This document shows, in pieces, positions 16,421 to 64,000 of a stretch of DNA of 64,000 bases. Source of the DNA: Sphagnum magellanicum (Eukaryota > Streptophyta > Sphagnopsida > Sphagnales > Sphagnaceae); the NCBI GenBank assembly GCA_021904315.1, contig CM038923.1:3348001-3412000 (forward strand), given 5' to 3'. A program made the position numbers and the translations under genes. How positions within the stretch are numbered: position 1 is the stretch's first letter; the number at the start of each line of letters is the position of its first letter. Below the pieces are notes generated by a model. It had not been told where the DNA came from, made no database searches, and saw nothing but the letters and a program-made list of their open reading frames with translations.

Positions 16421-16898
16421 CCTTTTTTAAGGGGGGATATTATATGATGTTTGTAGGAGCTGGTAGTATGTAATTTGTGGAGTAGATGTTCAAACAAGAA
16501 ATTCATGGACATGATCCATTTGCCTTCTCCTGCACACATGTATTGATCATATTTGAAGTAAATAGGAATGGTCAGGGATCACCACTGTGGTAGTGGTGTT
16601 ATGGTTATTCATCTTGTGGCGTTAATGTTGCACTAATGTGCTTGTGATCATCAGCTAGTCTTCAAGCTGCTCCAGTGTTTCAAGATTTCATAGCTATTTT
16701 TTGGACAAACCTTGGAAATACAATGATCCTGGAGGTCTCTTTTAGATCAAGCTCTATTGGATATTTGGGTTGTAAGTAATTTAATAATCTTGAGAAGCTG
16801 CCTGAAAGAATTAGTTGAAATGGCTCTAACAACTGGAGGGGGACTAAATATTTACACTGTTGGTCACAAGAGTGGTGCAACAGTTGGTAATTTGGACT

Positions 16899-18737: not shown

Positions 18738-19219
18738 AATCTATCAAAGAGTTTAAGTATGAAGGATTCAAAATTCCAAAAGGATGTAAAGTAATATTTG
18801 TGTGGGCTTCAGAAATTGAATCTAGTCCCTAGTCATAAAGCCATTAGCCATTTTTCCAACATTAGGAGGAGTATAATTTATAAAACAAAATTTCCCTTGG
18901 GGGCAAGTGGGAGTTTTGTTTCTTTGTCAAGTGTTTTGGTTGCTTATAAAACATTTTGTGAATTCATGTTAGCTTCATTAGGCATTTTGTGGATTCATCG
19001 AACAGTTCATGCCTAATCATTCATTGGGTTTTATGTGGGGTAATTCCCTAAGAGTGGGGAGTTCCTAAAATAACTACCCCTGAGGTGGAGTAACCAACGT
19101 TGGTTAATGATTCATGGGCAGTTATTTCACAAACTCCTTGCTTTGAGGTAGTTACCTAACAGAAAAATGTTTTAAGGTTTCAAAGTTTATGAATATAAGA
19201 CCTCCCTTGTAATGTAAGG

Positions 19220-19552
19220 CTAGTTTTACATTAGGAGTCTGGGGCAAACAAGCTTGGGGCCAAATTTGAGCATTTTTGGTTTCATCTTTGGCCCCAAGTT
19301 ATTAATAAATCCTAGAACATTGATGTCAATATATTAATAAATGTTGGACCATTGGCCCCAAGGTTTGCTAATTGGCTTCCCAAATTTGATGGTTTAACAT
19401 TTATTAGTAACTTGGGGTAGATTGAAAGATTTTTTCTATTTCAACCTTGATTCCTAATGTAAAACACTTGGGGCTTATTTCAACTTTTGCACCAATAGGA
19501 TATGCTTGATTGGAGTTGAACAGTCACCTTGAGTCCTTGTGTAAAATGAGCC
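19220..19552. mobile_element. MITE with TAA target site, in P450 copy A intron 5
   Basis: The left end GGCTAGTTTTACATTAGGAGTC (shown to 20: GGCTAGTTTTACATTAGGAG) is the inverted counterpart of the right end ('gactc..gtaaaatgagcc'). TAA precedes the left end (19,217-19,219). The right flank is TCA here, but TAA in the parallel sequence at about 63,465. A TAA/TTA target and short inverted repeats point to a PIF/Harbinger-type MITE. The interior includes a smaller inverted pair around 'cttggggccaaa'. No ORF. Confidence 0.6.
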
Positions 19553-20649
19553 TCATTAGAAACCCAAAATGAGGATGAAACCCTGCCAATCATAAATAAA
19601 CCAAACCACCCAAAAAAAGGGGAATACAAGGAAACCCAAAAACAAGGGGAAAATAACTTATCTCATGTGTTCTCCATATATAATCTCTTCTAATTTTATG
19701 GGTATGTTGTAAAGGTCCATTCAACAACTACTAACTATTACATTATTCCATTTCATGCACCCAATTTCAATTTTTACCACTTATCCCATGATGGTTTGTA
19801 ATTTAGGTGCCAATATCGCTTCTTTCTTTTTTAAGGCTAATGATCACCCTCCTATTCCTCTATGTGGCAAGTATTTGGGTCAATATGGCACTCTCACATG
19901 TTGCCATAAATTTTCCATAATCCCACAAAATTTGATCCATCCAAGTTTGAACAAGGACCGCCACCTTTCACCTTTGTACTATTTGGAGGTGGACCACATA
20001 TTATGTGTATTGGCAATGAGTTTGCAAAAACTAAAATCATGGTTTTCTTGCACTACCTAGTCCTCAATTACGAATGGTCAGTTGTTCACCCAAATGAGAA
20101 AATTTCCTATGATCCAATGCCTATCTTTGAAAAGGGACTACCACTCAAAGTTCATAAAAAAGCTTAGTAGTTAGGTACAAGTGTAGATGGAAATGCCAAT
20201 AAGGTTAGGTGGATGTTTACCCAATCAAGACATGGGAACTCAAGTGCAAACACAACCACATGAATGGATTCTTGTCACTATGTGCTACATGTACGTTACT
20301 AATAAGATGATTGTATTGATGAAGCTTTTTCTCTTGCACATCAACTTGAAAACTTGGAAGCTTTTTGGCTTGTCTTGATAAGGAGCTTTATGTCATATAC
20401 CAACTCTAATACCTTATAACCTTGGAAAGAAATATTAAGTGGGAATATTTAATGTCATGTATGAAATGTTTGTTTTGAGGTGCTTACATAGGTACAAATA
20501 ATTGATGGGAAGAGTTATTGATGAAACCTTAGGCACTTGGATGGTCAATGGATGATATGTGAAATTTACACCTCAAGGCTAGCTATATATTGATATATCA
20601 AAGTGACTATTGATATGTAATTAGAGTTTTAAAATATTACTATGAACCT

Positions 20650-21640
20650 AAAGCATGCCTAGCGGAAGCCCCATTTTGAGATCCTTGCCTTCTCCAATTG
20701 AATTAATTTTATTATTTTTGTCATTCTTTTGTAATTATTTCATGGTTCATTGTTCATACCTCCTTTGCTTCTTTTTCCTTTCTCTTTGACCTAAAATGTT
20801 AGTCTTTTCCCATATTTTGATTATTTTTAAAAGCTTAATACCATCTTTTGTCATGTCAATTTTAACCTTATGTGTGATGCCACAATTACACCCCAGATGA
20901 ATTGTTGTGTATCCCAAAATGATATCATCAATCTTACCCTTTTGAACTTTTTATTAAATCCTATTTATGTATATGACTATGTATTTGAGCCTTTTTGATT
21001 TTGGTTATTACATGAAAAAAGTTTATAACTAGGAGTCTAACATTTAAAAATTTTGTGAGTAAGAAATTTTCCTTACATGAGATTTCATATGAGCCATAAA
21101 TTAGTTACATAACAAAAAAATTTACAAAATAGTGACAATCCAACAATCAACCCCAAGCGGTTGTGAAGACTAACAATTTTCTAATCAATTCAACCATAGA
21201 AATGCATGAATTTACAATCATTGAATTATCACCTAGAAATAAAGTCAAAAAATAATAATAAAAATTTGAATCTTCTTTTATTGTTTTGCACATGTGTTAT
21301 TGTTCCTTTCTTTCAGTTAACATCATTGAGTTGGCACCTTTACAACTTGCCCAAAACTTCAAGTTTCATTTTTTTTTTTCAAAAATGAATTGATAACCAA
21401 TGAAACATCCTCTAGCAACCAACATGTCACCTTTTCTTGAGCCTCTTTCTAATGTAGATCTTTGGATTTCTATTGAAAAAAAAAAGAGGAAATGGGAGGA
21501 GTATGAACATATTAGGGTGTTTCACGATGTGTGGAATCCAAAACTTCCATGGGTAAAGTTGGTGGTGGATGTACATTAGAATGTGCATCAATTCAAACAC
21601 AAGATATGTACCAAAAGAAAGGGGAAAAAAAAGTTGCTAA
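20650..21640. other. No recognisable feature
   Basis: AT-rich DNA with no exon-like or repeat structure that I can define. Confidence 0.45.
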
Positions 21641-27559: not shown

Positions 27560-27875
27560 CTTCACCACAGTTCCAATGTAGGTGCTGATGTACCCATGGC
27601 GACAAATAGATAATATATCTGACAAATAGATAATATATGTGGCTACAGTGGGACGGACGGCAATGAGACGTAACAGGGAATAATGTCACGTGAATAAATT
27701 ATTCAGGGCCAATTAAAACCGACCTTGCTGGTGGCCATACACAAGTACAAATTAAAAAGCGACCTTGATGATTCTCCTTGCTCTGTCTTGCATGCATTTT
27801 TTAATCCATCATGAGTGTAGTTAGTTCAAGTCCTTTCCTGTCTTCCCTGCTTCCTTTTTCTTGGCTTTTGCATTC
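27560..27875 (+). repeat. Second copy of the 40-bp minisatellite repeat
   Basis: Collinear with 4,915-5,420 ('ccaatgtaggtgctgatg', 'cttgctggtggccatacac', 'gatgattctccttgctct', 'gttagttcaagtcctttcc'). The 40-bp array is reduced to about one and a half units. It abuts the start of the P450 5' flanking block that is shared with copy A. Confidence 0.6.
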
Positions 27876-28281
27876 CTTTTTTCAGGGAGAGATATTATTA
27901 TATGATGTCTGCCGGATGAGCTGCTCGTATGTACTTTGTGGAGTAGATGTTCAAGCAAGAGATTCATGGACATGATCCATCTGCCTTCTCCTCCACACAT
28001 GTATTGATCATCGTGAAGTGAATAGGATTGGTCGGGGATCACACACCGTGGTATAGGTGTTATGGTTATATTCATCTTGTGACATTCATGTTGCACTAAT
28101 GTGCTTGTGATCATCACCTGCTCTTCAAGCTGCTCCAATGTTTCACGATTTCATAATTCGTTTTCCGAACAATCCCGTACATACAGTGAACCTGCAGCTG
28201 TCTTTCAGATCAAGCTCCGTTGAATATTTGGGTTGTAAGTAATTTAATAATCTTGAGAAGCTGCCTGAGGAATCAGTTGAA
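27876..28281 (+). promoter_or_regulatory. P450 5' flanking block shared with copy A
   Basis: About 400 bp upstream of the P450 start codon are similar to 16,424-16,819, for example 'gtggagtagatgttcaa' and 'aagtaatttaataatcttg'. The upstream boundary of similarity falls near 27,880. The block must hold any proximal promoter and 5' UTR of the ancestral gene. I cannot place a TATA box or transcription start with confidence. Confidence 0.45.
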
Positions 28282-31200
28282 ATGGGTCCAGTTGCTGCTG
28301 CAGGGGGACTGAATATTAATTCTGCTGATCACAAGAGTAGTGGTGCAGGATTTGGTAATTCAGACTTAGTAGTACTAGGTCATCAGACAGGAGCCAAGCT
28401 CCAGGCGGGATTCGCTGCACTAGTCGGCACTGTTATTGCAATAGCAGTAGCTACTGCGTTGTGGGCCGGCTGGTTGATTTGGCAGAGGAGGCGGAATACG
28501 ATCAGTTACAAGTCGGTTGATGCAGCAGCTGGGAATATCAAGTTGAAGACTAAAGCTCCCTTGCCTCCAGGCAGTTGTGGCCTCCCTTTCTTGGGGGAGA
28601 CTTTGGAGTATCTGAGCGCTGCAAGAGCCAACAGATTACTAGAGTTCACCAACACTCGTATTGCCAAATATGGAGAGGTTCATGACTCCTGCACCCCCTA
28701 TGACAGTATATGAGCTTTTAGTCTCTCTGTCTCGATAGTTGCTAAACTCATGGTCAAGCCGTTTCACCCGATTGAAAAGCACACTTTTTGCTGCAAGAGC
28801 TCTCTCTCTCTCTCATCATTGTTCTGGTCATTATGACTTCATCATTTGCACCCACATGACAATATATTCCCTTTTGGCAGCTCTCTTTCGAAAGTTGCTA
28901 AACCTATGCTCAAGTCGTTTCAGTAAGTTGAAACGGACGCTTTTTGTTTGACCATCTCTCTCTCCCTCTCCATTTGCATTGTTCAGTCCTGATTCAGACT
29001 TGATCATCATTTGTGTGCACATAGGTGTTGTTGAACAGCATCTTCTGCAAGTGATCACCTGATCACAACATATTTGTATGAAATCTCATTAATTTGGATG
29101 TGATCTTCTTTCTTGAGGAGTCTTACAGTGGGATTTGGTTATTGTTGTTGCTCATGCAGATATTCAAAACCCATCTTCTCTTCTGTCTGACCATTTCTTT
29201 GGGTGCACCAGAGGGTAATAAGTTTTTGTTTGCAAACGAGAACAAGCTAGTCCAAAACTCATGGCCACCATCTGTGGCCAAACTTCTTGGTCGACACGCC
29301 CTTTCAACCAAAACAGGAGAAGAACACAAGTAAGCAAACTAACCCAACACTAGTTAGAAACCTATGCACATCATATCTTAACTGGATGGTAGTACTAAAC
29401 CATGAATTTTATAAGCAAAAATTGAGAACTCGCAGCTTAGTGCATGATCTACTGTGATGAGTTGATGGATGTAATATTATAGATCTATATGCAAAAATTT
29501 CCAGCTATCAAGGTTTGTGTGCAAATCATGAAAAAATTTCCTTGGTTGAAAATGAAGGCCTTGGTTAAATTCATGGATACTGATCAGGGGTATAACTTGG
29601 GTTTATATTGGTTTTCATGGGATATTTTCATTATTATTATTCAGGAAAGCCCGTCGTATTTATGCATCCTTTTTGGGCCAGATGGGTTGCAAAGTTTTGT
29701 GCCCAGAATGGATCAAATGGTGAGATGGCATTTGGATCAATTTTGGGAAAACAAGGAGGAGGTCATGGGTGTGGAGACTCTCAAACAATTCACATTCTCT
29801 TTGGTGTCTGATCTATTTTTGAGTATCAAAGATGGGCCAGAATTCAATTCTATGGCACATGATATTGAACTGTATCTTGGAGGAATAATGCAATTACCCC
29901 TTGATTTTCCAGGCACTAAATACCACAAGGCTAGGCTCGCTCGAGAAAGCCTTTTGCAGACATTGGGCACAATCATATCTCGGAGGCACAAAGTACAAGA
30001 TCAAAACTTTTCCAATTCTTTTTTTTAATTTTAAAGTTGATTTGACACCGGTCAGAGAGAAAAATAGAAAAATTTAGGAATATTACAAATTTTTGGCTAT
30101 ACCCACTGGAACATATTGTCTAAATCTGGCGATTTCAGAAATTAATGAATTCTCAAGGAAGCCAATGCAAGACCATTTCATGAATTCTCATAGAGGTTTA
30201 TGGTTGCCTTACTGCAAAATTGTCATGCAGTTTTTTGGTTACTCATTTGTGTACTAATATGGTCGGTAGTAATTGTAGGCTATCAAAGAAGGCCAAGATT
30301 GTGGGCACCATGATCTATTATCAGTATTGCAGGACAGACCTGACAATCAAGGGGACCTGATTACAGATGAGGAAATTAAAGACAATATTGTTATGTTTTT
30401 GTTTGCTGGCCATGACACCAGCAGTATCACCCTTGCAGCTATACTGAAGTATCTGTCTCTAAATCCACATTGTTTGCATGAGGTTGTCAAAGGTATTATA
30501 ATAATTTATGACATGACCAAATTTTATCTTCCACAATTTATGCTACAAGTTTTTCCTTTTTACAAATGGCATTTAAGCTTTGAAAATCATGCTTTGAAAA
30601 TTGTAATTTCAAATGTCTAGGACAATTGTCCTTAGCAATTCTTTCAGCATCCGGACATTATTTGTGTTTTCCAAATGGCTCACATGTCTGCTTTTTTTTA
30701 ACAGAGCAAGAGGAGATAGCAAAAGTAAAGGCCGGGGCACCGTTAAATTGGGAAGACACACAAAAAATGAAATATACATGGTGGGTGATGCAAGAGACTT
30801 TACGATTACAATCCCCTGTAGTAGGGGCATTCCGCAAATCCCTCAAAGAATTTGAGTATGGAGGATTCAGGATTCCAAAAGGATGTCAGGTAATATTTGT
30901 GTGGGCTTCAGAAATTGGAGCTAGGCCCTAGTCATAAGCCCTTGGCCATTTTTCTAACCCTAGAAGAAGCAGGATTTATAAAGCAAATTTTCCCTCCCAG
31001 GAGGCAGGAGGGAGTTTTCCTTCTTTGTGAGGTGTTTTCATCAAGCATTCTACAAATTGATCCCATCTTCATTATGCATTTTGTGGATTCATTGCAGCAG
31101 CTTCATCAAGCAGTTCACAAGTAATCAATCATTCACAGGCTAACTCCCTTAGAGCCGGGAGTTCATGAAATAACTGCCCCCGAGGTGCCACAATAACCAC

Positions 31201-31841
31201 CCTTGGCTACTGCCTCGGGGGCAGTGTAATTTCATGAACTCCCCACTATGAGAGAGCTGTTTTATGGGTTCAAAGTTTACAAATATAAGACCTACCTTGC
31301 ACTGTAACTAGCAACCCAAAAACAAGGAAAGCATAACTTATTTTATGTGTTCTCTTATATATTCTCTACTACTTGTATGGATATGTTTTCAAGGTCCATT
31401 CAATGGCTGCTGATTATTACACCATTCCATTTCATGCACTCAACTTCAATGTTTTACCAGATATTCCATGATGGTGTCTAAGGTGCCAATGCATCTTCAT
31501 CTTTTGAAAAAAGCTAATGATCACCCTCCTATTTGTCTATGTGGCAGGTGTTTTGGACAGTTTGGAGATCTCACATGTCACCAATTTTTTTCCCTAATCC
31601 CACAAAATTTGATCCATCCAGGTTTGAGCAAGGACCACCACCTTTCACTTTTGTACCATTTGGAGGTGGACCACATACGTGTATTGGCAATGAGTTTGCA
31701 AAAACCGAAACCATGGTTTTCTTGCACTACCTGGTCCTCAATTATGAGTGGTCAGTTGTTCACCCAAATGAGAAAATCTCCTACAATCCAATGCCTATCT
31801 TTGAAAAGGGGCTCCCACTCAAAGTTCATAAAAAAGCTTAG
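28282..31841 (+). pseudogene. Cytochrome P450, clan 85 (CYP716/CYP725-like), six exons, one apparent frameshift
   Basis: Predicted exons: 28,282-28,677; 29,160-29,329; 29,645-29,992; 30,279-30,492; 30,705-30,889; 31,548-31,841. All introns are GT-AG. Domains in order: N-terminal anchor helix (about residues 43-65, preceded by an unusually long 40-residue Gly/Ala-rich leader), PPGSCGLPFLGETLEY hinge, helix I AGHDTSS, helix K ETLR, FDPSRF, and heme loop FGGGPHTCIG with Cys ligand. The usual Arg of FxxGxRxCxG is His here. Such enzymes hydroxylate triterpenes or diterpenoids at the ER. The six exons total 1,607 nt, not a multiple of three: exon 3 reads KKARRIYASF, then must change frame to reach PDGLQSFVPRMDQ. 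Copy B has one more base here. So this copy is a recent pseudogene, or the base is an assembly error. Intact length would be about 535 residues. Confidence 0.85.
28690..29005 (+). repeat. Tandem duplication inside P450 intron 1
   Basis: Two imperfect units of about 155-160 bp lie side by side (about 28,690-28,847 and 28,848-29,005). Each holds 'gttgctaaac..atg.tcaag.cgtttca', a 'cactttttg/cgctttttg' stretch, a CTCTCTCT run and a 'cattgttc' block. It lengthens intron 1 and does not disturb the splice sites. Confidence 0.55.
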
Positions 31842-32340
31842 TATTTAGGTACTTGTAGATGGAACTGCCAATAGGGTTAGGTGGAGGATTACCTGACGAA
31901 CACATGGGAACTCAAGGGCAAACACATCCACATAAACAGATTCTTGTCACCATGTGCTACATGTACACTACTAATAAGATGATTGTATTGATGAAGCTTT
32001 TTCTCTTGCACATCAACATGAAAAATTTGGAAGCTTTTTGGCTTGTCTTGATAAGGAGTTTTATGTCCATATCCAACTCTAATACTTTGTAACCTTGGGA
32101 AGGAACACTAATTGGGAATACTCAGTGTCGTGTATGATGTGCTTGTTTTGAGGTGCTCACATAAGTACACATAACTGATGGAAAGAGCTATTGATGTAAC
32201 CCTATGCACGTGGATGGGTAACAGATGATATGTTAAAATTACACCAGAAAGCTAGCTATATATTGATAAATCAAAGTGACTATGTAATCAGAGTTAACAT
32301 ATATTACTGTGAACTTAGAGCATGCCCAGCAACAGCCCCA
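31842..32340 (+). other. P450 3' flank shared with copy A
   Basis: The roughly 480 bp after the stop codon align with 20,167-20,650, for example 'aagatgattgtattgatgaa' and 'gctagctatatattgata'. So the duplication that made copy A and this copy included the 3' flank. Confidence 0.6.
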
Positions 32341-37366: not shown

Positions 37367-40316
37367 ATGGCTACAACTACTGGTTCATTTGGTTTTCGAG
37401 GTCAGCCCAACAAGAAGTCTGTTGAAGAAGTCGACTACGGTGGTCGCGAACTCATTTACTGGATAAATGTCTAGAAGATGTCATCTGATAGGATTGACCC
37501 TAAGAAGTTGATTGAGGAAGGCCACATCACTTTGGAGGAGGTTTCTGCTGTTTTTGGCGAAAAGAAGCAAAACGGATACAAAGCTCGAAACCTTGACCTT
37601 CTCCCTGAGGTGAAAAAAAGAGTTGATGACTTGTACCGGAAGTTTTATCCCTCCAATGGGAAGGTTACCAATAATGAGTACGGACGCCAACTATGTTGGG
37701 GAATTGTTGCAGAAAGAAAAGGTGTGAAGGTGTGTTGGGCAGCACTTGGGCTTAAGGTGGCCAAAAAAAAAGCTCGAAGAGATCAGAACATTGGGGTTGG
37801 TGAGGATGGAAAGTCGTCAAGCAAGAACCCGAAGTTCACAAGGCTGTGAACCCCAAAGTCAAGTTTGACTCAGGCGATGGATGTGTGTATCATAATCCTT
37901 CAAAAGGAGTTGTGGGTGCATCAAATGTGGCTGCACATGTTTCCAGGAGAAATGACAGCTTTAGTCCAGAGGAGATTTCAAAAATGGAAGACCTCTACAA
38001 GATGAAAGGCAAAGAGCTAGCTGCTATGAAAGGTCTTGCAGCAAGAATGTCAAACAAGAAGGAACTTGTTGAATCCCAAGTGAAGAAACTGAATTCTCAA
38101 ATGGAGGACAGGGAGGTGGCATGTGCAGAGGTCAAAATGGGTTTATGGGTTGCTATAGATGAATTGAATGTCCACAAGTACAATGATAACTTCTTGGAAC
38201 CCACAGCAATGTTAACAACTGAAGGTATGGGGCTTCCTCTTTGTAAACTGCGATCACAAGAAGATGCCACTAGGTTGGACGCCTTAATTCGAGAGGTAAA
38301 ATGCCACCAGAAAACCCTAGCAGCATTCAAGCAAAAAGTTGTTTCTGGAAAAATAAAATATCAATTGACTTGCAAGGAATATGAAGATGTTGAGCTTGAT
38401 AGGACCAAAGTCCTACACTCTGTTGAACCTGTTAGAGCAATTCGCACTAAATTTTGTTCTCAGTTAGAGCGCATGCGTTTTGGGTTTGGAGTGTCAACTT
38501 TTCCTTTACCCATTATTCACCCTTGTAGACAAAAGGATTCTAGAAATGTAATTTTGATCAAAGCATGTCCAATTTGCCAAGAGTGGTTTACAACCAATGA
38601 TATCATTGTTGCTTCATGTGGGCATACATATCACCCATTTTGCTTGTACACGCACTTCCAATCTTCTGACTCATGTGCTGTGGAGTTTTGCCATGAACCA
38701 TTTCTTCATCCTGACTGGTGGCTTAGTATGGGAATCAACCCCCTATTAGAAGAACAGATAGTTGCTGCTACTAATATGGGCCTGGAAGACAACAATGGAT
38801 GTAGGAGAAACTTGACATCGTCAAGCAAAAAGGTAAGGATTACCCCCTCCCACTTGCACTATTTTTTTGTCAACCTGCTGTCCTTCTTGAATATGTTGGG
38901 TCTTTAGGTTGCTCATGAGATTATAATGCTTTCAAATGTGAAATACATATACTTCCAATAGTGTAACCCATGTGACAAGGGGTTCCCACACTTTTATCAG
39001 TCCTGATGTTGTTCTGATTTAGTTTCCAAGTCCTTAGATTATGCAGGTTTGTAGTAGACAGTAGGAATTGTCACTTGCAGGAGTACTAAGTCAATGGAAT
39101 GCAATCCTTTAAAGGGGTAGGTTTTTCCAAGGGAAAGTAGTCCTTCCAAGTGAATTGAGTCCTACCAAATAAAAAATGGCATCAGTCCTTTGACATGAGT
39201 AATTTCTTTTGACAGATTAGCAAAATTAACTAAGGACCTTAAGTCCTGTTTTTAAAAAAAGGACAATAGTTCTTTGAGATGTGTCAAGTCCATTTGCAGT
39301 CCTTTTTACAAATTGTAAGTTCATGGATGTGGGAATAGACTCATTTTGTAGTACTTTTGCAGATTGTAAGAACAAATTTAGGAGTAGAGTCCTTTTTACA
39401 GATTGTAAAAATGAATTAAGGAACCAAGTAGTCCTGCCAATTTGGATTTTGTCAAAAGGATTAGCATCTCATTTCAGTTGTTCATTGGTTGTTTATGGCA
39501 GTGATTAAGGATGGGAGCTCTATGTTGCCAAAAATTGACGTTGGTTCATCCACATCATTTAGTTGGATGTCAAGAGCTTTCAATTCCAAGCTCCAGGAGC
39601 AGGAGTCACCACAGGAGGCAAATCAGCCTCCTCATTTGTTAACTTCATCACCAAATCCATCAAAGATGTTGGGAGAGTCCAGTCCCAAAAGATTGTGACC
39701 TAGCTACGATTCAGAGTTCACTTCTCCATTAAAGCCCCAAACAACAGAACATACCACTTGTCCAAAATTTCTTAGGCTTTGTGATGCACAACAAATCAAG
39801 AAACTAGTAACGGAACTTAACTCAGATGAGGAGGGAGATGTTGGCAGTGATGAATTTTTACACACTAACAAGTCAGAGAAAGAAGGTGAGTGTGGTCAGA
39901 ATCAACTCCATGCTAAACCTATTCAGGTGGATGCCAGCTCATTAGTACTCTTCAATCCTTTGAATTCTGAGCTTGCAAATCCTCTTTTTTCTTCTTCTAT
40001 GCAACATGTGTCAGCCCACAGTCCTCTTCCATTGACCTCTGAAATTTTCAATCTCGATGAATAAGATGTTCCCACTTGTAAAATGGGATCTTCAAACATT
40101 ACCCCCATCACCTCAGGCCCTGCCTTACTGCTTGTAGCTCCCCATAATGGCTCCCTTAATTTGGAGATGGCAAATGATCTTGTGCTTGAAGCTGTGAAAC
40201 TGACAGGAGTTGTTCAACCATCTGGACAATCTAAGAAATGCCCAAAACTTTGTGTTGGACACCAATTAAAACACTTGCAGCCTTCAAAAAAGTTATTACT
40301 TGAAGTGCTAAACTAG
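37367..40316 (+). pseudogene. Variant RING-H2 zinc-finger protein, interrupted
   Basis: A start codon at 37,367 follows a good acceptor (tttttgtgtag at 37,350). The first exon encodes MATTTGSFGFRGQPNKKSV, a TAG (37,472-37,474), then an Lys-rich domain (DPKKLIEEGHITLEEVSAVF ... NEYGRQLCWGIVAERKGVKV). The frame shifts near 37,810-37,845 into a coiled-coil-like stretch (about 37,960-38,350). A zinc finger follows at 38,566-38,703: CPIC, 13 residues, CGHTYHPFC, then CAVEFC. It resembles RING-H2 but the last pair is C-x4-C instead of C-x2-C. A consensus donor (aag|gtaagg) is at 38,833. A Ser/Pro-rich, acidic exon (39,502-40,316) stays open apart from TGA at 39,696 and TAA at 40,062. RING proteins are usually ubiquitin ligases; that role is only inferred. 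I do not recognise the N-terminal domain. Confidence 0.6.
39030..39480 (+). repeat. Degenerate AGTCCTT/AAGGACT array in the intron
   Basis: The intron between the zinc-finger exon and the last exon contains about ten occurrences of agtcctt or close variants (for example 39,142, 39,162, 39,187, 39,290, 39,388, 39,431) at irregular spacing. A similar cluster is at 51,480-51,830. Its nature is unknown. Confidence 0.4.
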
Positions 40317-47500: not shown

Positions 47501-48790
47501 CTATACATGCACATTATGCCAGGAATAGTAGACTAGCTACACACCGAGCTATAAATACTTGGGAAAGGAAGATTTTCATAAAGAGGAAAAGGTCAGCAAA
47601 ATACACTTTGGCTAGCTAAGCTCAAGCTTTATTAGATTCATAATATATGATACTGAAAGACAACCCTGAGCCTTATAAAGCAGGAACAGTACCACTAACA
47701 TTTCCTCAACACCAGTTTCACCTGTAACCATTTCAACCATGTTCTGTTAGATGCTATTGTCAGATAGCAGCAAGGAGACCATCCAACAACCAAGAATAAC
47801 ATACATAAAGATATTAACATCTTAATGTGAAAAGAATAGAATGTCAAATCCAACCAGTAGGTGAACAAACTTCTCTTGCAAATCAAATCAAACCAGAACA
47901 ACAAATGGCAGAAAATGAAATTTCTCATGAACCTCCTAACCAATTTCATCTTCATCTTCAAATTCTCCACTTCCACCCCATTGTCCTCTTTAATCACAGC
48001 AACTATTTCATCCATGTTTCCACCATTTTGCAGACCATTGTTGGGTCCTTTTACGAAGGAAAAAACAGAAGATCATAATAAGGTTAATTGATATGTATTA
48101 CTTTGCTTAACAAGACAGAAATTAGATGAAACAACATAGGATTCCATAAGCCACTCTAGAAGTTCATAACCAATCTTAAATAAATTTTTAGTTCAAGAGG
48201 GTAGTTCAAAATGCAAGCTTGCTGTCAAGCTTTACCCTAGTTTACTTACCATGACCAGTGCTGCCAGAATGGTTAATTTTCTTCTCTTCACTTTGTAAAC
48301 ACCTGCCATGCCCAAAACCAATTCTTATGATAATCACCTTGGCCCCCCCACTAAGAAATTGATGAACACATACAGCGCATGTTGAACACTGTCCACAACA
48401 ACAAACTGAGGCACTTGTTGGATATTCAAACAGAAGCAATTTGACAAACACAAATCTAAAGACTACACTCCCACATCAAAAGCTTCCTCCAAAGTTCAAT
48501 CCTACCATTCTTAGAAGTTTAGCACAATGAATAACAATAGCCAATCAATGACATTGATGCATTTCATAAATGGGCACAATACATCTCAGGCCACACAAGC
48601 TATAAATAATCTACCTTATCTCATCCCTGATTCTAATAATTGTCTATTAGCCAATGATTGCAATATTGTTTCTTCAACATCCGCTTGAAGAATGTAAGTT
48701 GGGATTGAACCCTTACACCTATGAGCAGTCATCAACATCAGAAACTTTGCACACAATAGTAAATGAGAATAATAATATGCACTTGGAGAT

Positions 48791-49895
48791 CACTATAAGA
48801 AATCATGGTTTTTCAAAATGTTCAACTTGATTGAAGTGTTCACAGTGACTAAAAGGATGTTCAAATTGACTAAAGGCATGGGGCATGAAAGACACATGAT
48901 TCTTTTGGTTAGTTTTTCACTAAAGTGACCATTTTGACCAAGTGTTAAATTATACATTTAATCAAAAAGACAAATTTTCAAAATGGTTCATCAAGATGTC
49001 CATGGCCTAATCAAATTGGCCATATTAAATGGCCATGCTTAATCAAATTGACCATATTAATTTGCTTAGCTAGTTTATTTTCTATACTTACTAAGCTACC
49101 TACCTACCTATTTACCTACCATCTACCTACCTATGTCCTACTTGCCTATTACTATCTACCTACTATTTACCAAAATTACATATTTATTTACCTACCTACC
49201 TATATTATGTTTATCTACCTACCTACCTAATATTTACCTACATACTTACTTATAATTTACATAAGTCGGTATGAACATTTAAAAACATAAGTAGGTAGGC
49301 ATGTGTACCTACCTATCTACCTAGTTAGATACCTACTAACCTACTTATGAAAAAAATTAAAGTTCAAATGTTGTTATACACATTGACAAAAAAATTCATG
49401 AAAGTTCAAGGATACATGTTAAATCCATTTGGTATCATATTGTTTTACAAAGTGGTGGGGTGGTTTGATGGCCAAAACATTGATGTGGAACTGAGGAGAC
49501 CAAGGTTTAATTCCCTTTACCAACATATATTATGTGGAGTATGTATATTTGTATATATACTTTGTACATGTGTGTAAATGTATAATACATAGGTGGATTG
49601 TGAATAAATAAGTAGGAAGCCATGGTGGGTAAGTAATGGGTGGGTGGGTAGGTAGGTACTTATTATTTATTTATTATTTACATTTTTATATTACAAATTG
49701 AGCTATTTTTTTAATTAATTTTTTTGGATTGCCTAAACTTTTGTCTAATCTTACTAGTCAAAAAAACCATGAATCAAGTTGGATGTGTTCAAATCGACTT
49801 GTTTAGTATGACTAAATGGTCAAATTGACCAAATGTCAAAATGATTAGTTTTTTGTTTAGTTTTCCAATCAAATAAATTGTGATTTCTTGTAATG
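48791..49895. mobile_element. Non-autonomous CACTA (En/Spm) element
   Basis: Starts CACTATAAGAAATCATGG and ends (read inward) CATTACAAGAAATCACAA, close to the canonical CACTACAAGAAA terminus. GAT is duplicated on both sides (48,788-48,790 and 49,896-49,898), the 3-bp duplication expected of CACTA transposons. Subterminal DNA on both sides carries short motifs such as 'tcaaattgac' and 'gaccat' in repeated, partly inverted arrangement, as for transposase binding sites. The interior has a CTAC(C/T) array on the left and GGTA array on the right. No transposase ORF; length 1,105 bp. Confidence 0.85.
49090..49330 (+). repeat. CTAC-type tetranucleotide array inside the CACTA element
   Basis: Runs of 'ctacctacctac' with 'atttac' interruptions fill 49,095-49,245, with further short runs to 49,330. 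The complementary 'ggtaggtaggta' run at about 49,641-49,660 can pair with it, so the element's interior can fold back. Confidence 0.7.
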
Positions 49896-50124
49896 GATAT
49901 ATTTAGCAGAACATAGGTTTTGGAAATTCTATTCACCTATGATACCAAATTCCGCATAGTAACCAATCCCTTGCATCCAAATTATTGCTCCACCCATCCA
50001 TAAAGTCTTCTTGGCAAGTGACTAGAAATTTGTCACACAAAATTAGGAAAAATTATTCACCATTAGTAAGATCATTAGCCACAACAACAAAGTTGTCTCC
50101 TTGAGCAATAATATTTGCTAATGA

Positions 50125-51320
50125 CTAACCATCACCTCCCCAAATCAATTGGAAGTTGTTATCATCTAGCATAGATCTAGCTACAGATCTTTCAGTGGGT
50201 ATTAGCTTGATTGTCTTGCAAGGCTTCACATGTGACCTAAAATCACAATCATCTTCATCACTCCAATCAACACAAGTGGGATAGAAACAATTCAATTCAC
50301 AAATTAGTAGCAACTTAGGGTCAAGGTGGTCCAAAGAGGATATGGAGTACATCTTACGAAAATTGTCCATTATTGCACATCCAAAAGTTTGGCTCCTATC
50401 TACATCATATAATTCCACATTCCAAAAGATGCAAGACATAATTTGACACACATTAGATGGACCAATGTACTTCTTTGCAAATGTTGAACATAGGAATTCA
50501 ACAGCATCTGCAACATTTTGAAATGGGGCCACATTTAATCTCAACTACTCCTTCCTCAACTTTCTTTTTGCTATTGCCCCTACTCCATCATGTTCTCCTT
50601 TACCGTGTCAAGAGCCAAAGAAATCCCATAACATGCGACAACTTGTAGGGTTATTAGGATCAGTAATTTTTCTAGGGTATTGTGCAACATGGTACCAACA
50701 ACATGAAGACTTGAATTGGCCAAAACAACTATCACTCCACACCCAATGCTAAGATGGATGAACACCTAGGTCTTGCAAATGTTTCCAATGTAATTCAAAT
50801 GCATGTTGAACAAAAAAGGTATCATGTTCCTTATCGTGAAAGACATAGTAATGGTACTCCTTGATAATTCCTTTGCTTTCAAAGTCAAAAGGATCACAAT
50901 TAAGGTTGTGGTGGTAAGTGAAATCCACAAAAATTGTTATCTAAAATTTACACCAATGCATTTCTTGGATTTCATTTTGACCTTTGAATGAATAATTCTT
51001 TACAAAATCAATGACAAACATGACCACATCTTTAGGAAAAGTCAAAAGACATTATTAAACTTTTTATCCAGCCACTTTGACACAAAGTCATGAACTATAA
51101 AATGGGCTAGCTTGGGTTTCAAATAGGTAACAAAATTAAATGAAAAAGTTTCAAAACACTCAAGTCTTGTGACCTTCTTCTTTTCACCCCTAGTTAACCC
51201 TACTAACACCTTTCGAAAACACCTCCATTGCATTAATTGCCCATTCCCAGAAATCTCATGTGGACAAAGCTTTAGACTTTTGACACCATAATCTTTGCAA
51301 TTACCACGAATATAATCCAA
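50125..51320 (-). pseudogene. Remnant of an unnamed transposase-like family (SDG-QFKS / HGKG-DG)
   Basis: The minus strand reads in family order: VKSLKLCPHEISGNGQLMQW and VLVGLTRGEKKKVTRL then KLAHFIVHDFVSKWLDKKFN (51,320-51,050); QNNFCGFHLPPQP-type linker frames; WKHLQDLGVHPS (50,795); HWVWSDSCFGQFKSSCCWYH (50,740); MLWDFFGS, stop, HGKGEHDGVGAIAKRKL (50,600); then FQNVADAVEFLCSTFAKKY, RKMYSISSLDHLDPKLLLI and CFYPTC (50,530-50,260). I know this arrangement (W-SDG-x3-QFKS ... FFGS-x-HGKG-x2-DG ... Cys-rich tail) from uncharacterised proteins of plants and animals. The spacing of Asp residues and the multicopy habit suggest a transposase, but that is inference. Several stops: not functional. 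Confidence 0.6.
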
Positions 51321-51479
51321 TTTAAACCATTCCTCTAAGGGACCTTTTGGATAGAATGTTGACTACCAAAAGGATGTCACACCTTCAAAAGTTAAAGTAC
51401 ATTATCAATTCAAGAAATGGACCTTTTTACTAAGTCAACTCCTTAACACTTCTAAAAAAGAGAAAGACTACATTAGGAT

Positions 51480-51830
51480 AGGGACTAGAGTCCATGAAAG
51501 CATTTAGAAGAACTTCAATCCTTATTGTTAGTTATTGTTATATGCCACTACTCCTTAAAGGAGTACTCAAACTCCTTCAAAGGAATACTTCACCTCAAAA
51601 AAGGAATGAAAGTCCTTCAAAGGAATAGTGGGAATCCTCAAATAAGGAGTCATTACTCTTTGGGGGAGTAGTCTTATTCCTTAAAAATTAGTTGTAGTCC
51701 TTAAACTAGGAGAGACTACTATTTAGACAAGTAATCTTACTCCAAAGAAAACAATGTGATTTTCAAACAAGGATTAGATGGACTTTTACACCTCAAGGAA
51801 TGATTGATCATGTGTACTCCTCTCCAAGGG
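51480..51830. repeat. AGTCCTT/AAGGAGT cluster
   Basis: More than a dozen short direct and inverted copies of agtcctt, aaggagt and actcctt occur in 350 bp, giving many potential small hairpins ('actccttaaaggagt' at 51,551 is a perfect palindrome). Class unknown. It separates the two blocks of the transposase-like remnant. Confidence 0.45.
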
Positions 51831-52586
51831 AAAGACAAGGATACATGAAGTACTATTAGACCTAATCAAAATCTAGACACAAGTGTACACTTTTGCCAAA
51901 CAGTCTAGTGTACACTCCTTTGAACAAAACTAGATCCATAAATTACAAAAAGGATTGAATCATGTGCACAACTTAGATAGAAGATATCTAAATTTGAAAA
52001 AACCTACAATGCACTCTTGAGTTAAGAAGCTTCGATTTGAAACTTCTCTAACCTAATTCAACTTGAGAGTTGTGATCCAAAAATAATGGCAAGCTTTTGC
52101 TATGTTATGACAAGCTAATGAAACTTTGCAAAAAAAATAGGTAGACAACTTTTTGTTACTGATATCAAAAATTGGAGTTACAAATTTTACTCAAAAGAAG
52201 AAATTTATAGAGTTGCAAACTTGCAAGAAAAGTGCAGATCTACTAACTTGAGAAAAAATTCACAAAGCTACAAACTTGAAAAGAGAATTCCAAAACTACA
52301 AACTTAATTAAAAAAATTACAGAGTTGCAAATTTTTGGTTGTATCTCACTTGGGATTCTTGCAAATAGTGTTGAGAGTGTGAAATGAAGCTTTTAACCCT
52401 AGTATGAAGTCAAACAATATCCTTCTTATTGGGTGAAACTGTAGTTTGTAAAGTCCACCAAGACTCCACAATAACTCTCACATTCTTTGTCAAAGAATCA
52501 AATTTGTGCAAACATTCTTCATGACCCCAAAGTGGCATATTCAAACTTAACATTCGCACCTTCCTCTTCATGGATTTGTATAAAAA

Positions 52587-53128
52587 TCATCTATCCATTC
52601 CTAAAACCTTTGCTACCACCCTTCCATTTAAGGTATTCGTAGATGTGGCCATACTATAAACTGTTTGATACATATGCACTTCATCCCTCTTATAAGCTCC
52701 CACTCTATGACTTAAGGAATTTGACAGATTTTGTATGATGTTACTTTTTTTTGAAACTTTTGCAACACTACCAAACCCTTCTGGCATAAGAACTCACAAC
52801 TCTAATGTTTGAAAGACTTTAAACCAAGTCTTATGTTGCCAACTTAAATCTCAAACCTTGAAAACACCGATCGCATGGGATGTAATCTTCTTGGCATTGT
52901 AAAAGGTTTGGCGTTCATTACTATCACAAACATTGGAAGTGGCAACGACTTGTGATAACAAAGCTTGAGAAATAGCTTCGTGTTCATATTTCTAATGTCA
53001 ACATGTTTGTTGACAAATTTGCCAAGTTTGCCTTCTCTTTTCCATAGCTTGTTGATCACAATCAAAGCTAATGTTTGTGAGTTCTTATTATGTAAGCTCC
53101 ATACTATCTCCACACAAACAACAAACAA
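52587..53128 (-). pseudogene. Possible N-terminal part of the transposase-like remnant
   Basis: Minus-strand frames with protein-like composition: EAISQALLSQVVATSNVCD then ERQTFYNAKKITSHAIG (about 52,985-52,865) and LSNSLSHRVGAYKRDEVHMY (52,715-52,655). Their orientation and position upstream of the block at 51.3 kb would fit the N-terminal, Cys/His-containing part of the same protein, with an insertion between. I cannot confirm the match. Confidence 0.3.
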
Positions 53129-55876
53129 ATAAAGTTAGGTGATAAAAAACATATGCAAAGCTCTTGAAAACCTTAAAACCAAAGAAATCAAAATTTCTCG
53201 AGAGAATTGAAAACATGTTACTGTAACATAATTTGGTTAAAGAAATCAAACTTGCAAAGCTCCGTGTGGTGTGTAACCATGATTAAACAACAATTACAAG
53301 ATTGTTGACATAGATCTTCACACCCACAACAATTCAAAGGTCAGTAAATTATTCTTTACAAGCAATTATCAACAAGGTATAAAACAAGAATGTGGATGCA
53401 AACCTAGTTGTGTGCAACATGAATGCAACCCAAATATTAGTTTTTGGACATCCGAATGCCAGCAACAATGTAGTTTGACCAATATTCCTTGCACATTCAA
53501 GTGTTAGCAAACATGTAGTTTGGTTAATATTCCTTGCACGTTTAAGTGTTAGCAAACATCAAACCTTGTCATTGCACAAATGTGCAATAGACCCAACTAT
53601 TCTACACAACACACACTCACACAATCAAACACTTGGCATGTACAGTGAAAAAAATTTATTGCCCCACCCATGAAGTGAGTATTTGATTTTGAAAAAATGT
53701 GTTTTATATTTTTATTTGTAGATTTGTCATTTTTTTTTTCAAATGTACAATCAGATTTTCACCAATATCATAAGGATTCCTAAGAAAAAAACAAATTCCT
53801 TTATCGAAAATAGTGACAACATGACATTTATTTTGGACTCCTTATGGGTTTGGACCCAGATGGCAATAAATTTTAGTTTGCAAACAAGAACAAGCTACTG
53901 GAAACCTCATGGCCACCACCTGTGGATAGACTTCTTGGTTGTCATAGCCTTGCAAACAATACAAGAAAAGAACACAAGTAAACAAACTAACCCACTATTA
54001 CAGTAAACCCTTGCATATCAATATGTTTCAAATGTGGTACCACTACGAGGCCATGAATTTTCAAAACAATTTATTTGAAAACTAACTACAGTTTATTGCA
54101 ATTTGCATTTACAGTAGTGGAAAGTTCAAGGATATAATAATATTATAGATTTATACAAAGCTTTCCACCTATCAAGGTTTGTGCATAAATCATTAAAATT
54201 TTCCCTGATTAAAAATTAAATAAGCCTTAGTTAAATTCTTGGATATTGATTAGGGGTTTAACTTGGGTTGAAATTGGTTTTTATGGGACATTATTATTTA
54301 GGAAAGCGTGTCGTATTTTTGCATCCTTTTCTGGACTAGATGGGTTGCAAAATTTTGTGCCCAAAATGAATCAAACGATGAGATTACATTTGGATCAATT
54401 TTGGGAAAGCAAGGAGGAAGTCATGGGTGTGGAGGCCATCAAGCAATTCACATTTTCTTTAGTGTCAAATCTATTTTTGAGTATCAAAGATGGGCTAGAA
54501 TTTGATTATATGCCACATGATATTGAATTGTATCTTGAAAGATTAATGCAATTACCCTTTAATTTTCCAAGGACTAATTACCACAAGGCTAGGTTTGCTT
54601 GAAAAAGCCTTTTGCAAACATTGGGCACAAGCATATCTTGGAGCCGAAAAATAAAAGATCAAAACTTTTCCAGGTCTTGAAAAATAATTTTTTTGATGTT
54701 GAAACGGGTTGGAGAAGAAAGTAGAAAAAATTATTAATTGTACAATATTTTTGCTATAACCATTGGAACCTAATTGTCTATAGATGGCAATTTTAGAAAT
54801 TAATGAATTTTCAAGGAAGCCAATACAAGACCATTTAAAAATTCCCCTAGAGGTTTATGGTTGCCTTGATGCAAATTTGTCATGCAATTTTTTGATTACC
54901 CATTTGTGTACTAATATGGTAAATTTTGTAGGTTATCAAAGGAGGCCAAGATTGTTGGCACCATGACCTTTTATAATTATTGATAAACACATTTGACAAT
55001 CAAGGGGACCTAGTCATAGATGATGAAATTAAGGACAATATTGTTTTGTTTTTGTTTGTTGGCAATGACATTAACAATATCATCCTTGTGACTATCCTAA
55101 AATATCTATCTCTAAATCCACATTGTTTACATGAAGTTGTCAAAGGAAATATAATTTATGACATTACAAATTTTATCTTCCACAATTTATGCTACAAGTA
55201 TATATATTTTAAAATTGCATTTAAGCTTTGGAAATGATAAAATTTCAAATGTCCAAGAAATTTGTCTTTTGCAAGTCTTTTAGCATTCGAACATTATTTG
55301 TGTTTTCCAAATGGCTCACATGTTTGGTTTTTTTTTTACTAGAGCAAGAAGAGACCGCACAAGTAAAGGCCAGGGCACCATTAAATTGGGAGGACACATG
55401 AAAAAGGAAGTATACATGGTGGGTGATCCAAGAGACTTTGCAACTACAACCCCCCTTATATAACAACATTTTGTGAATCTTTCAAAGATTTATTTTTTTT
55501 TGGGCACAAATGGAAAGAATTCATTACAAAAAGAAACAAAAACAATAAACCCCCAAAACGAAAGGAATGCCATAACACATTTGGAACCTTAATTGATGAA
55601 GCCCCTTTGGGGCCCATCATAACACCGCCTAACAAAGGTATCAACCCTAACACAAATAACTTGGTGCCTACCCTAGCTCTTATCAAACTTTTCAAGAAGA
55701 TTTTCTTTTGCCCTAGGGGTTTTTTTTAATTAGCCTCATACATCTATTCCAAGCAGCCCTACCATAATCAAATAGGGCATCCCAAATAACTTTGTGGATT
55801 TTACCAACATTCCATTTTTCATTGTTGAAAACCAAATCATTATGTTTAATCCACAAAGTCTAGAATGTGATACCTC

Positions 55877-58811: not shown

Positions 58812-59309
58812 CTCAAAAAAACTTCCATGGCTTCTTTGTTGTTATCTTTAAGAGTTCGCCTTATATATAGTCTAGCATAAAATTCTCTGCACTGTTCACC
58901 TATTTCAATAGTTGAATAGATGTTCTAGCCTTGGTCATCTTCCAATTCTATGATTCGTGAACGAAGCCCACATTTTTCAAATGTAGCAAATAATTCTTTA
59001 GTGGCTTCATGGCCTTTTTCTAGCATTTTCCCCTTGACCTCCTATTGAGGTCATAAATTTTCTTTTCCTCAAACTCCTTTAATTGATCTAATGTTTTATC
59101 CATTGTTACTTTATTTTCCTCACTGTTTGGGTCTGCCTACAATTCTCCTTATGCAACATCAAGCTAAGATTTCACTAAATTCTCCAACATCCTCACTTCG
59201 AACACCACTTCCTCTTATAGAACATTTTATAGTACCCCATTGTTTTGCATATTTTGGAAAGGAAAGGCAAAATTTCCTTCAGCCCATTCCAAAGTTTAGT
59301 CATTTTGGC

Positions 59310-60129
59310 TGACGCGCTCCCAAGTCCCTACTTAGTCCCAAGTTGGGACTAAGTTACTCAAGTTGTGGAATTGTGGAGGACTCAGGGCACGCTTCCAGCT
59401 CTTAGCACTAAAAGGGGTAGAGGGGCATGCTAAAGCTCCGAGATTAGACTAAGAAGAGGGACAAGCTATTCACTTACTCGAACTTGCATCAAACCAACCA
59501 ACAAGTTGGTTAGTTCACATTCTAGAGCACCCTTGGTGCTAGGACAAGCCATGGGCAACTCTGGACTCACTTGACTCACCACGGCCCAGACTCAGGGGAA
59601 GCCACCACCTTCCCTCATATAGTATTCTCTGTGACACTCCGCCACATTTGCATCCGAATGGCACTTTTTCCCGGGACTCCCAAAGTGGAGTCCTGAAACT
59701 GTCCCGGTTTGGACTCTCGGGACTTTGGGCGTTCATAACTTCTCGCTCCAACCTCTGATTGGGACAAGGTCTGAAGCAAATTTGTAGCTCTCTTTGATGA
59801 CTTTTCAATGGTGCATTGCAATCCACCTGCACACACCGGGATCAGGTCGATTCCCGACTTTTAGTGGTCGGGAGTCAAACTACCAGTTTGATTCTTGGCC
59901 CTTCTTTCGACCATAACTTGTGCTTTAGATGTCCAAATGGCTCATGTGAGGACATTTTGGACATCTACACTTCAAGAACTTTCCAACGATATAAAGAAAG
60001 CCTTTATGCGAGGTGTTTTGACCCCTACAATCACGTTCTGAGTTTCCAGGAGTCCCGGAGGACTCCCAAGTCCCATTTTCGGGAGTGTGAATGGCGACCT
60101 CACATTTCCCTCAAAGTGGGGTTGCGACA
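59310..60129. mobile_element. Solo LTR 1 inside the LINE
   Basis: 820 bp starting TGACGC and ending GCGACA, i.e. TG...CA, flanked by TTGGC on both sides (59,305-59,309 and 60,130-60,134). A near-identical element lies at 62,004-62,806. Inside are many 'gggactccc'/'gggagtc' motifs. No internal retrotransposon domain or second LTR is adjacent, so it is a solo LTR left by recombination. Confidence 0.85.
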
Positions 60130-60399
60130 TTGGCAATGGCCACTAGATTATTCAAATGCTTCTTGTTCATATGAAAAATGTTTCTTCTAACACTGTTTGG
60201 TTCCCCCATCCTACAACAAAAGAAAATTAGGGAATGATTTAACACCCCATAATCCGCCTTGATTTCATAACTCATGATGGACCCATCTCGCCATGCTCCC
60301 ATGCCTTTAGGTGCATAGAGTCTATCTAACCTTGCCAAACCCTAATCCCGTCTCAATCAATGGATGGTTTCTAATTTGCAACTTTCTTGGTTTTAAAAG

Positions 60400-61430
60400 T
60401 TTTGCTCAAGGACTAATCATCTCCCCTTCATCCAACAACAACTTTCCTTCAACTTGTTGACCTTTTCTAGTGGTAGCAATTTGATCCTTTCCACTTCCCC
60501 TAGAATCCATCTTGGCTACCTTGCTAGCTACATATTTCTTCTCAATTCCACTAACCATAATAACATGATCTTGAGCACTTTCCTTTTGTGCTTTCCTTCC
60601 AAGCATGGTGCCATCACTTTGGTGTAATGCATCTAAGGTAATCAACATGTTGTTCACTGGGACCTAGATAGGCATGGGCCTATCTTTCCTTGGCTTATTT
60701 TTTTTACAACTAATGACCATGACAAAATAGTTAAAGTCCTTCCCATTTTGTTTTCCTTCCTCCTGAATAGGTGAAAATTGCTTCTTTGATGAACTAATCT
60801 TGGGATCTCCGAGCATAAGATGGTCGACCCCATCTTTGTGAATGTCTCCACCTGCCACTCTTGCTCCTTCCCCTTGAATGGTAACATTTTTATTTCTTCA
60901 TGAATAAGGTTTTCTCATAAGCCTCCCCCAATTTCATGGACTTCACCTTCAAACTAACCAAGTTTAGATAATCCTTCACTTGGTGAAATGATTTTAAACA
61001 AAATTTACACCGAATGGGTAAGAAATCAAAATCAATCAGCATTGTCATTGTTTCGCCCATGGCTTCATTTTCCACCACCAATGATGTCTCCCATCCATCT
61101 CTAGCCTCTAATGTAACACAAAATTGTTGTTTAGTTGTTTGAATGGTTACCTTATCAAACCTTAACATAGTGCCCAGCCTAGCCGTGATTTCCCCACCTA
61201 TGCTCCAAAATTCCACCAAGAGCTTCCTTAAGGTGATCCAAGTTGGGATTCTCATACCTTTTGAGTTATCGACATTGAAACTTGGAACCCATTCTTGAAA
61301 AATAGCCAATTCCCAACTTGTCTTGAAAGGTGTTAGCATTAACAATTTTTTCACTATGACAAGTCCATCTAATTTTAGCATGAAAAACCCTTTGCCAAAA
61401 GAACAATCAAACAACACCTTACCCCTAACT
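60400..61430 (-). pseudogene. LINE ORF1 (DUF4283/zinc-knuckle type)
   Basis: The largest open part (61,417-60,890) reads GKGFFMLKLDGLVIVKKLLM, WELAIFQEWVPSFNVDNSKG and MRIPTWITLRKLLVEFWSIG, ending in FLPIRCKFCLKSFHQVKDYL. This is the DUF4283-like plus CxxC-x4-H pattern of plant L1 ORF1 proteins that bind LINE RNA. The final Cys of a CCHC knuckle is Tyr here, and Cys (KDCLNL) in the copy at 17.6 kb. Stops and a frame change follow. The copy in 17.0-18.0 kb is about equally degraded. Confidence 0.75.
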
Positions 61431-62003
61431 TTTTGATTAAGGAAAACAAGCTAAACATTAAATGCATTAGGGGAAGGGGAAGGTTTATCTCCAATAAAGT
61501 TTACAATGACTGTGTGGTCATGCAAATATGCCATTTTTGCTTTGACAACATCTTAGTTAATTCATACCACATGCTTGCTATCCTTCAAAAGGAAGCCAAT
61601 GTAATTATGAAAATAGCCTTGTGGCAAAATCTTTCTCGGTGAAGCCCTTGTAGTGTTAAATGTGAATTTTCTAGTTCATTGAACCAAAATGTCACATTCA
61701 TTCTTCAATTAAATCCCCCATCACAGTAAACATCAACACATCATTGAGGCCATCCTTGGATTGATGCACACAATCAACAAAAAATATACCTCCCACCAAA
61801 ACTTGGGCCATCTATTATCCAACCTCATTAGCATGCCACTCTTGGACTCCAAAGTGTAACCTCGTTGCTTCAGGCTACCACACAATTGTGTCCTTGCAAA
61901 AACCACCCCTTCCTCCATGCACCATTGGTGCCACAACCCTAAACCAATCACAAAGTAAATTTGCAGCAAACACAACCAAAGCAAAACTAAAGGGCACTAA
62001 AGC

Positions 62004-62806
62004 TGACGCACTCCCAAGTCCCTTGTTAGACCCAAAAGGGGTCCAACTATATATGTCAAAATGCGGAAATAGTTTGGGACTTGGAGCTACTCCCAGCTTC
62101 CAGCACTAAAGGGGGTGAGAGGGGCGTGCTGAAAGCTTCGGGATAGATTAGGAAGAGGGACAAGCTTACTTAGTTATCGGTCCTGCATCCAAATCCAACC
62201 CACAAATGGGTTAGAACTCATTCTGCACCTTTTTAGTGTTGGGACAAGCCACGGGCAACTTGGACTCACTTGACTCACCACGGCCCGGACTCAAGGGAAG
62301 CCACCACCTTCCCCCATATAGTATTATTTGCAGCTCTCCACGGGACTTGCATCCAAATGGCTCTTTTTCCCGGGACTCCCAAAGTGGAGTCCCGAAACTG
62401 TCTCGGTTTGGACTCTCGGGACTTTGGACGCTCATAACTCCTCGACCCAAACTCGGATCGAGACGAGGTCTGAACCAAAGTTGTAGCTCTTGTTAGGATC
62501 TTTCCAATGATGTGTCGCACCTCACCTACACGCACCGGAATCGGGTCGATTCCCGACTTTTAGTGGTCGGGAGTCAAATTGCCAGTTTGACTCCCAGCCT
62601 TTCTTTTGACCATAACTTGTGCTGCAGATGTCCAAATGGCTCATGCGAGGCCATTTTGGACATCTACACTTCAAGACCTTTTCAACGGTATCAAGAACGC
62701 CCCAATGAGAGGTGTTTTGACCCCTGCAATGACGCTCTGAGTTTTTGGGAGTCCTTTAGGAGTGTGAATGGCAACCTCACAACTCCCTCAAAGTGAGGTT
62801 GCGAAA
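62004..62806. mobile_element. Solo LTR 2 inside the LINE
   Basis: 803 bp, same family and orientation as solo LTR 1. It starts TGACGC and ends GCGAAA (the expected CA has become AA), and is flanked by AAAGC (61,999-62,003 and 62,807-62,811). The copy-A LINE fragment at about 18,600 shows the empty site ('actaaagtaatgcctat'). Confidence 0.85.
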
Positions 62807-64000
62807 AAAGCAATGCCTATTAAGCAAGATTGTGTTAAACTAAAACTTAGAAATAATGATTAGCTCCTATGCCATGTTCTAGAAATTGGAAACATGTGCA
62901 TGAATCCCTCTTCCATTGTTTCCTGAGCTCCAGTGCCCCCTCAATCTGTTAAAGAATTTGAGTATGAAGGATTCAAGATTCCAAAAGGATGTAAGGTAAT
63001 ATTTGTGCGGGCTTCAGAAATTGGATCTAGTGCTTAGTCATAAATCCATTGACCATTTTTCCAACACTAAGAAAAGTATGATTTATAAAATGAAATTTCC
63101 CTTGGGGGTGGGGTGGGAGTTCTGTTTCTTCTTCAAGTATTTTGGTTGTTTATAAAACATTCTATGAATTCATGTTAGCTTCATTAGGCATTTGTGGATT
63201 CATTGAGCAATTCATGCCCAATCATTCGTTGGGCTTTATGTGGGGTAATTCCCTAAAAGTGGGGAGTTCCTAAAGAACTGCCCCAGTTTGGCTTCCCAAA
63301 TTTGATGGTTTAGCATTTATTAGTAACTTGGGGTAGATTGAAAAGGTTTTTTCTATTTTAACCTTGATTCCTAGTGTAAAACACTTAGGGCTGATTTCAA
63401 CTTTTACACCAATAGGATATGCTTGATTGGAGTTGAACATTCACCTTGAGTCCTTGTGTAAAGTGAGCCTAATTAGAAACCCAAAATGAAGATGAAACCC
63501 TGCTAATCATAAATAAACCAAAGCACCCAAAAAAGGGGGAATACAAGGAAACCCCAAAACAAGGGAAAAATAACTTATCTCATGTGTTCTCCATATATAA
63601 TCTCTTCTAATTCTATGGGTATGTTTTAAAGGTCCATTCAACAACTACTAACTATTACACTATTCCATTTCATGCACTCAATTTCAATCTTTACCACTTA
63701 TCCCATGATGGTTTGTAATTCAAATGCCAATACCACTTCTTTCTTTTTTAAGGCTAATGATCACCCTCCTATTCCTCTATGTGGCAAGTATTTGGGTCAA
63801 TATGGCACTCTCACATGTTGCCATAAATTTTCCATAATCCCACAAAATTTGATCCATCCAAGTTTGAACAAGGACCGCCACCTTTCACCTTTGTACTATT
63901 TGGAGGTGGACCACATATTATGTGTATTGGCAATGAGTTTGCAAAAACTAAAATCATGGTTTTCTTGCACCACCTAGTCCTCAATTACGAATGGTTAGTT

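Follow-up and report, generated by a model that had tools for sequence, protein, structure and literature searches.

A decayed gene in Sphagnum magellanicum that reads best as a DDD-type transposase

Introduction

The described systems closest to the locus reported here are the DDD/E transposases of eukaryotic DNA transposons, which have an RNase H-like fold. Sola stands among the DDD/E superfamilies of Repbase in one paper, which also gives a C/DxxH motif between the second D and the last catalytic residue as common to some DDD/E superfamilies (PMC9587614). A second source places Sola in plants, with Sola1 in Physcomitrella and also an occurrence in Capsicum (PMC9033089). The KDZ set (Kyakuja-Dileera-Zisupton) comprises eukaryotic transposase groups; Zisupton is given as the only one of them to have been characterised well, its terminal inverted repeats and target duplications included (PMC12730594).

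We analysed a window of 64 kb (64,000 nucleotides) of Sphagnum magellanicum DNA, in which an initial annotation had placed the remnant of a transposase-like family. The gene may resemble DDD/E transposases in having three acidic residues in order with plausible spacing, here in a decayed copy, but it differs from them in that its sequence matches none of the Pfam families of this class. With Sola it would share the DDD/E class, and Sola is likewise reported in land plants. With the group of hAT, P, MuDR, Kolobok and Dada it would again share the class, and its tetrapeptide CWYH would be a candidate for that group's C/DxxH motif; it has no Pfam match to the group, and its third residue would be D where the motif has E. 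It also differs from KDZ in the lack of a match in Pfam, a collection that contains a KDZ model.

Results

A dead protein-coding gene on the minus strand

The gene is made up of the following parts, numbered by position in the window.

49936..51051, minus strand: main decayed coding frame, 372 codons with 6 in-frame stops, a putative catalytic core, from stop depletion and translation
50587..51009, minus strand: span of the proposed DDD triad, from translation, with a putative catalytic role
51042..51362, minus strand: upstream coding piece in another frame (STFYPKG...CFRKV...KPKLAHFIVHDFVSKW...), a 106-codon open frame
51363..52349, minus strand: probable intron of 987 bases, phase 0, with donor-like and acceptor-like ends
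52350..52793, minus strand: N-terminal coding-like piece (...TVSPNKKDIV...SHSQHYLQESQ), from stop depletion and translation
52844..53134, minus strand: less clear coding-like piece, perhaps the N-terminus, in a frame different from the others, from stop depletion

The frame 51051-49936 (-) is what remains of a genuine protein-coding gene, now dead. Its 1116 bases hold 6 stops against 25.5 expected; none of 2000 dinucleotide shuffles had so few, and this frame had been named beforehand. Across the whole window, frames of 1116 bases with 6 or fewer stops begin at 297 of 125,774 overlapping positions, and clusters with 8 or fewer stops over that length number nine, the present frame among them. 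The blocks quoted in the initial annotation are real and lie without exception on the minus strand: WVWSDSCFGQFKS and FFGS-stop-HGKGEHDGVGAIAKR share one frame (codons starting 51051, 51048 and so on), which carries VIDF, WSDS-QFKS and HGKGEHDG blocks, a Cys-containing stretch and a C-terminal tail. The block that had been titled SDG-QFKS is present, but its residues here are SDS, not SDG. The Cys-containing tail CELNCFYPTCVDW... reaches down to 50125 (-), past which the frame runs 189 bases more, to 49936, with one further stop; this extension reads IAQGDNFVVVANDLTNGE-stop-FFLILCDKFLVTCQEDFMDGW...GIWYHR (also read from the translation as IAQGDNFVVVANDLTNGE-stop-FFLILCDKFLVTCQEDFMDGWSNNLDARDWLLCGIWYHR), and the C-terminal tail reads IAQGDNFVVV...DGWSNN...GIWYHR. 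The earlier claim that the copy is dead holds.

The KLAHFIVHDFVSKW block sits in the piece 51362-51042 (-), in a different frame from the main blocks of 51051-49936, and the gene therefore carries at least one frameshift. Stops are depleted in 51365-51042 (-) (2, both at the ends, against 7.5 expected; P 0.009 for its own frame and 0.0345 for any of three), in 52793-52410 (-) (2 against 9.3; P 0.0015, any of three frames 0.007) and, weakly, in 53134-52844 (-) (1 against 6.4; P 0.0085, any frame 0.019); the P values of the latter two intervals are flattering because these were picked for being open. The sequence 52330-51366 (-) is open in no frame, with 31, 24 and 22 stops against about 22.5 expected. 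Since the interval 52349-51363 starts with GTGAGA, finishes with TTTTGGTAG and leaves the frames on its two sides in phase with each other, we read these 987 bases as probably an intron; a nested insertion would also fit.

Layout of the proposed Asp triad

The three Asp codons lie at 51009-51007, 50733-50731 and 50589-50587 (-), giving by translation of this single sequence the layout D-x91-D-x47-D, which is DDD-like in order and spacing. Spacings of x91 and x47 fall within the range of DDD/E transposases. Judged by eye, the segments around the Asp residues run strand, strand, strand, helix, strand and HGKG block, which is the RNase H order. A single-sequence AlphaFold2 model of the main frame came out at low confidence (mean pLDDT 35.6, pTM 0.24, with 367 of 372 residues below 50) and puts the first Asp in a helix instead of a strand. 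A CxxH, CWYH (codons 50700-50689 (-)), stands between the second Asp and the third, where in one sequence it may have arisen by chance; as a four-residue match it would be a weak DDD/E signal.

Searches for relatives

Searched to an E of 10, Pfam matched no transposase or RNase H family and gave only unrelated sub-threshold rows (Cytochrom_C550 0.034-0.053, CAMSAP_CKK 0.075, DUF7725 0.12, Capsid-VNN 0.11, Pmev_kin_ERG8 0.25). PHROGs gave nothing at E up to 1 and NCBIfam, also at E up to 1, only unrelated rows (NF033171 at 0.043), while PDB sequences gave no match for one query translation and only a lectin at E 0.51 for the other. All these weak rows were dropped, because the profile rows fall below the cut-offs and the rows are mutually unrelated. 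The Pfam result is a soft negative, because two P450 pieces of the same window also escaped Pfam at E 0.01 despite being matched by phmmer, both of them to P450 structures. No entry in Pfam, NCBIfam or PHROGs names the gene, in keeping with its earlier description as one without an established name. Rfam at gathering scores had 0 matches in the window.

In the literature, searched without the family's own name being known, no title or abstract start among the matches listed named such a family; HGKG combined with transposase or DNA transposon returned no paper, and DUF7869 likewise none. Unnamed animal and plant proteins appear to carry NEIQ..HW, SDG/TDG and HGKGxxDGxG blocks in the same order, and the initial annotation had described this kind of order for algae, land plants and animals; such proteins are not known to have an established name.

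A protein query of viral contigs gave no pattern match, and a later scan gave 12 pattern-matching stretches, among which tblastn at E 1e-3 found no relative. Four motif patterns matched 0, 0, 61 and 4 loci in viral contigs; HGKG..DG.G is carried by the 61 viral loci and by 1 bacterial locus. Against these 66 motif loci, tblastn of the decayed protein found nothing better than E 1.9, and we therefore take the 61 and 4 viral loci as chance. The only prokaryotic pattern locus, in a Niastella MAG, was rejected as a chance frame antisense to an ORF that we take, on our own reading, to be cysteine-desulfurase-like. In phages and plasmids, tblastn with an E limit of 1 returned no relative. That these searches reached no relative among viruses, phages, plasmids and prokaryotes would fit a family confined to eukaryotes; this is weak evidence, since the collections hold only such non-eukaryotic sequence and a pattern scan picks up little but close copies of its motif.

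Neighbouring sequence

One neighbour is a separate gene copy.

53841..55454, plus strand: truncated P450 copy, a neighbour and not part of the gene, homologous from 53841 onwards to another copy (29.2-30.8 kb)

Aligned with itself, the window shows 53856-55454 matching 29208-30816 at 80%, and the P450 piece at 29483-30028 has taxadiene 5-alpha hydroxylase as its best phmmer match (E 8.7e-14). The related P450 copies span 27714-32340 and 53841-55454, the second being truncated at 53841. Further long repeats at 16417-20673, 27871-32340 and 59308-64000 have 71-96% DNA identity between pieces and common parts of the P450 flanks, and their sequence suggests a segmentally duplicated region. A fragment of a DUF4283 protein lies at 60890-61450 (-) (E 5.8e-09), presumably of the kind found in plant retroelement-derived proteins. 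Among the window's long frames, 37516-39252 (+) is the most open, with a minimum of 1 stop per 1116 bases, and the ORF 37804-38907 gives a RING-type zinc finger just under the Pfam cut-off. Another rather open frame, 7989-9602 (-), has a minimum of 3 stops per 1116 bases and no Pfam match; we take it to read like a Helitron helicase-like protein.

Copies and ends

The gene had been described as a decayed copy in repeat DNA, and the self-comparison of the 64-kb window gave no second copy of it, so its repeat nature was not borne out within that span. Terminal inverted repeats fared no better: an ungapped search of 48500-49960 against 52800-54200, which could miss decayed, gapped or more distant ends, returned a single pair at the reporting score of 13, one arm of which falls within the P450 copy; a score of 13 also came up in 2 of 10 mononucleotide shuffles. 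On visual inspection we discounted other inverted pairs with arms on either side of the gene, for example 48960-48984 / 53686-53710 (80% of 25), as chance pairings of A-T-rich sequence. Because the P450 homology stops at 53841, within P450-like coding sequence, there is a break about 0.7 kb upstream of the first coding-like piece of the gene; nothing we found ties this break to an end of the element. At 53461-53559, about 0.3 kb upstream of the same piece, there are about two tandem copies of 45 bases with 87% matches.

Discussion

The best explanation of the locus, and in our judgement a probable one, is a dead gene, in a plant, for a DDD-type transposase (RNase H fold) of a eukaryotic DNA transposon. 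The sequence itself shows a decayed, fragmented coding frame whose three Asp residues are suitably placed; the fold, catalytic activity, intron and mobility are inferred. The transposase reading draws on the strong stop depletion in 51051-49936, on coding-like pieces ordered upstream and split by a non-coding GT/AG interval, on strand-like and helix-like stretches that, judged by eye, alternate around the Asp residues, on CWYH as a weak sign, and on surroundings with a repeat-type protein (DUF4283) and truncated gene copies. Against it stand the lack of a transposase or RNase H match in Pfam, PHROGs, NCBIfam and PDB sequences, the inverted repeats no better than shuffles, the single copy in the window and a fold prediction that is uninformative and has a helix at the first Asp. 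The earlier transposase reading is thus supported in part, by the dead gene, the DDD-like Asp layout and the lack of a name in the family libraries; our analysis gave no support for a repeat nature within the 64 kb, for terminal inverted repeats or for an RNase H fold, and nothing was found that contradicts a transposase outright. A functional relative would have its first Asp closing a strand (VIDF), its second (WSD) following the fourth strand and its third within the HGKGxxDG block. Together these residues would coordinate the two metal ions with which the enzyme cuts and joins DNA, while binding of the element ends would fall to the N-terminal part.

Next in rank comes a pseudogene of an ordinary, immobile host gene of unassigned function, which we consider unlikely. 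The single copy in the window, the intron-like interval, the lack of terminal repeats beyond chance and the position next to another truncated gene copy would all suit such a pseudogene, but the three-Asp layout speaks against it, as would the similar, unnamed and apparently multi-copy proteins of animals. More doubtful still, in our view, is a role as passenger or accessory gene of some larger mobile element whose transposase would lie elsewhere. In its favour, inverted repeats tightly flanking the gene are lacking, and other repeat-type remains, those of the DUF4283 protein, do occur in the window; however, the self-comparison (E up to 1e-5) shows no larger element with paired ends, and there are no paired ends among the 20 of 39 direct and 25 of 53 inverted repeat families listed for 46-58 kb. 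That the protein was a retroelement's nuclease or integrase domain is very improbable, given that Pfam matched neither an integrase nor a reverse transcriptase nor an RNase H and that long direct repeats do not flank the gene; in its favour are the DUF4283 remains in the window, presumably of retroelement type. A chance open stretch with no gene is scarcely credible, for all that the region is A-T rich and HGKG..DG.G arises at the viral and bacterial loci above, in view of a stop depletion that no shuffle reached.

Returning to the transposase reading, we tentatively raise the possibility that the gene belongs to an undescribed eukaryotic DDD superfamily of land plants and animals, with the layout D-x(about 90)-D-x(about 47)-D, a HGKGxxDGxG block around the third residue and no Pfam model. 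The dead copy would add an occurrence of the family but no function. If the family is as it looks, it would be a transposase group fairly common among unnamed plant and animal proteins and yet without a curated model, and its copies would, for lack of such a model, be annotated as 'uncharacterised protein' and be missed in repeat annotation.
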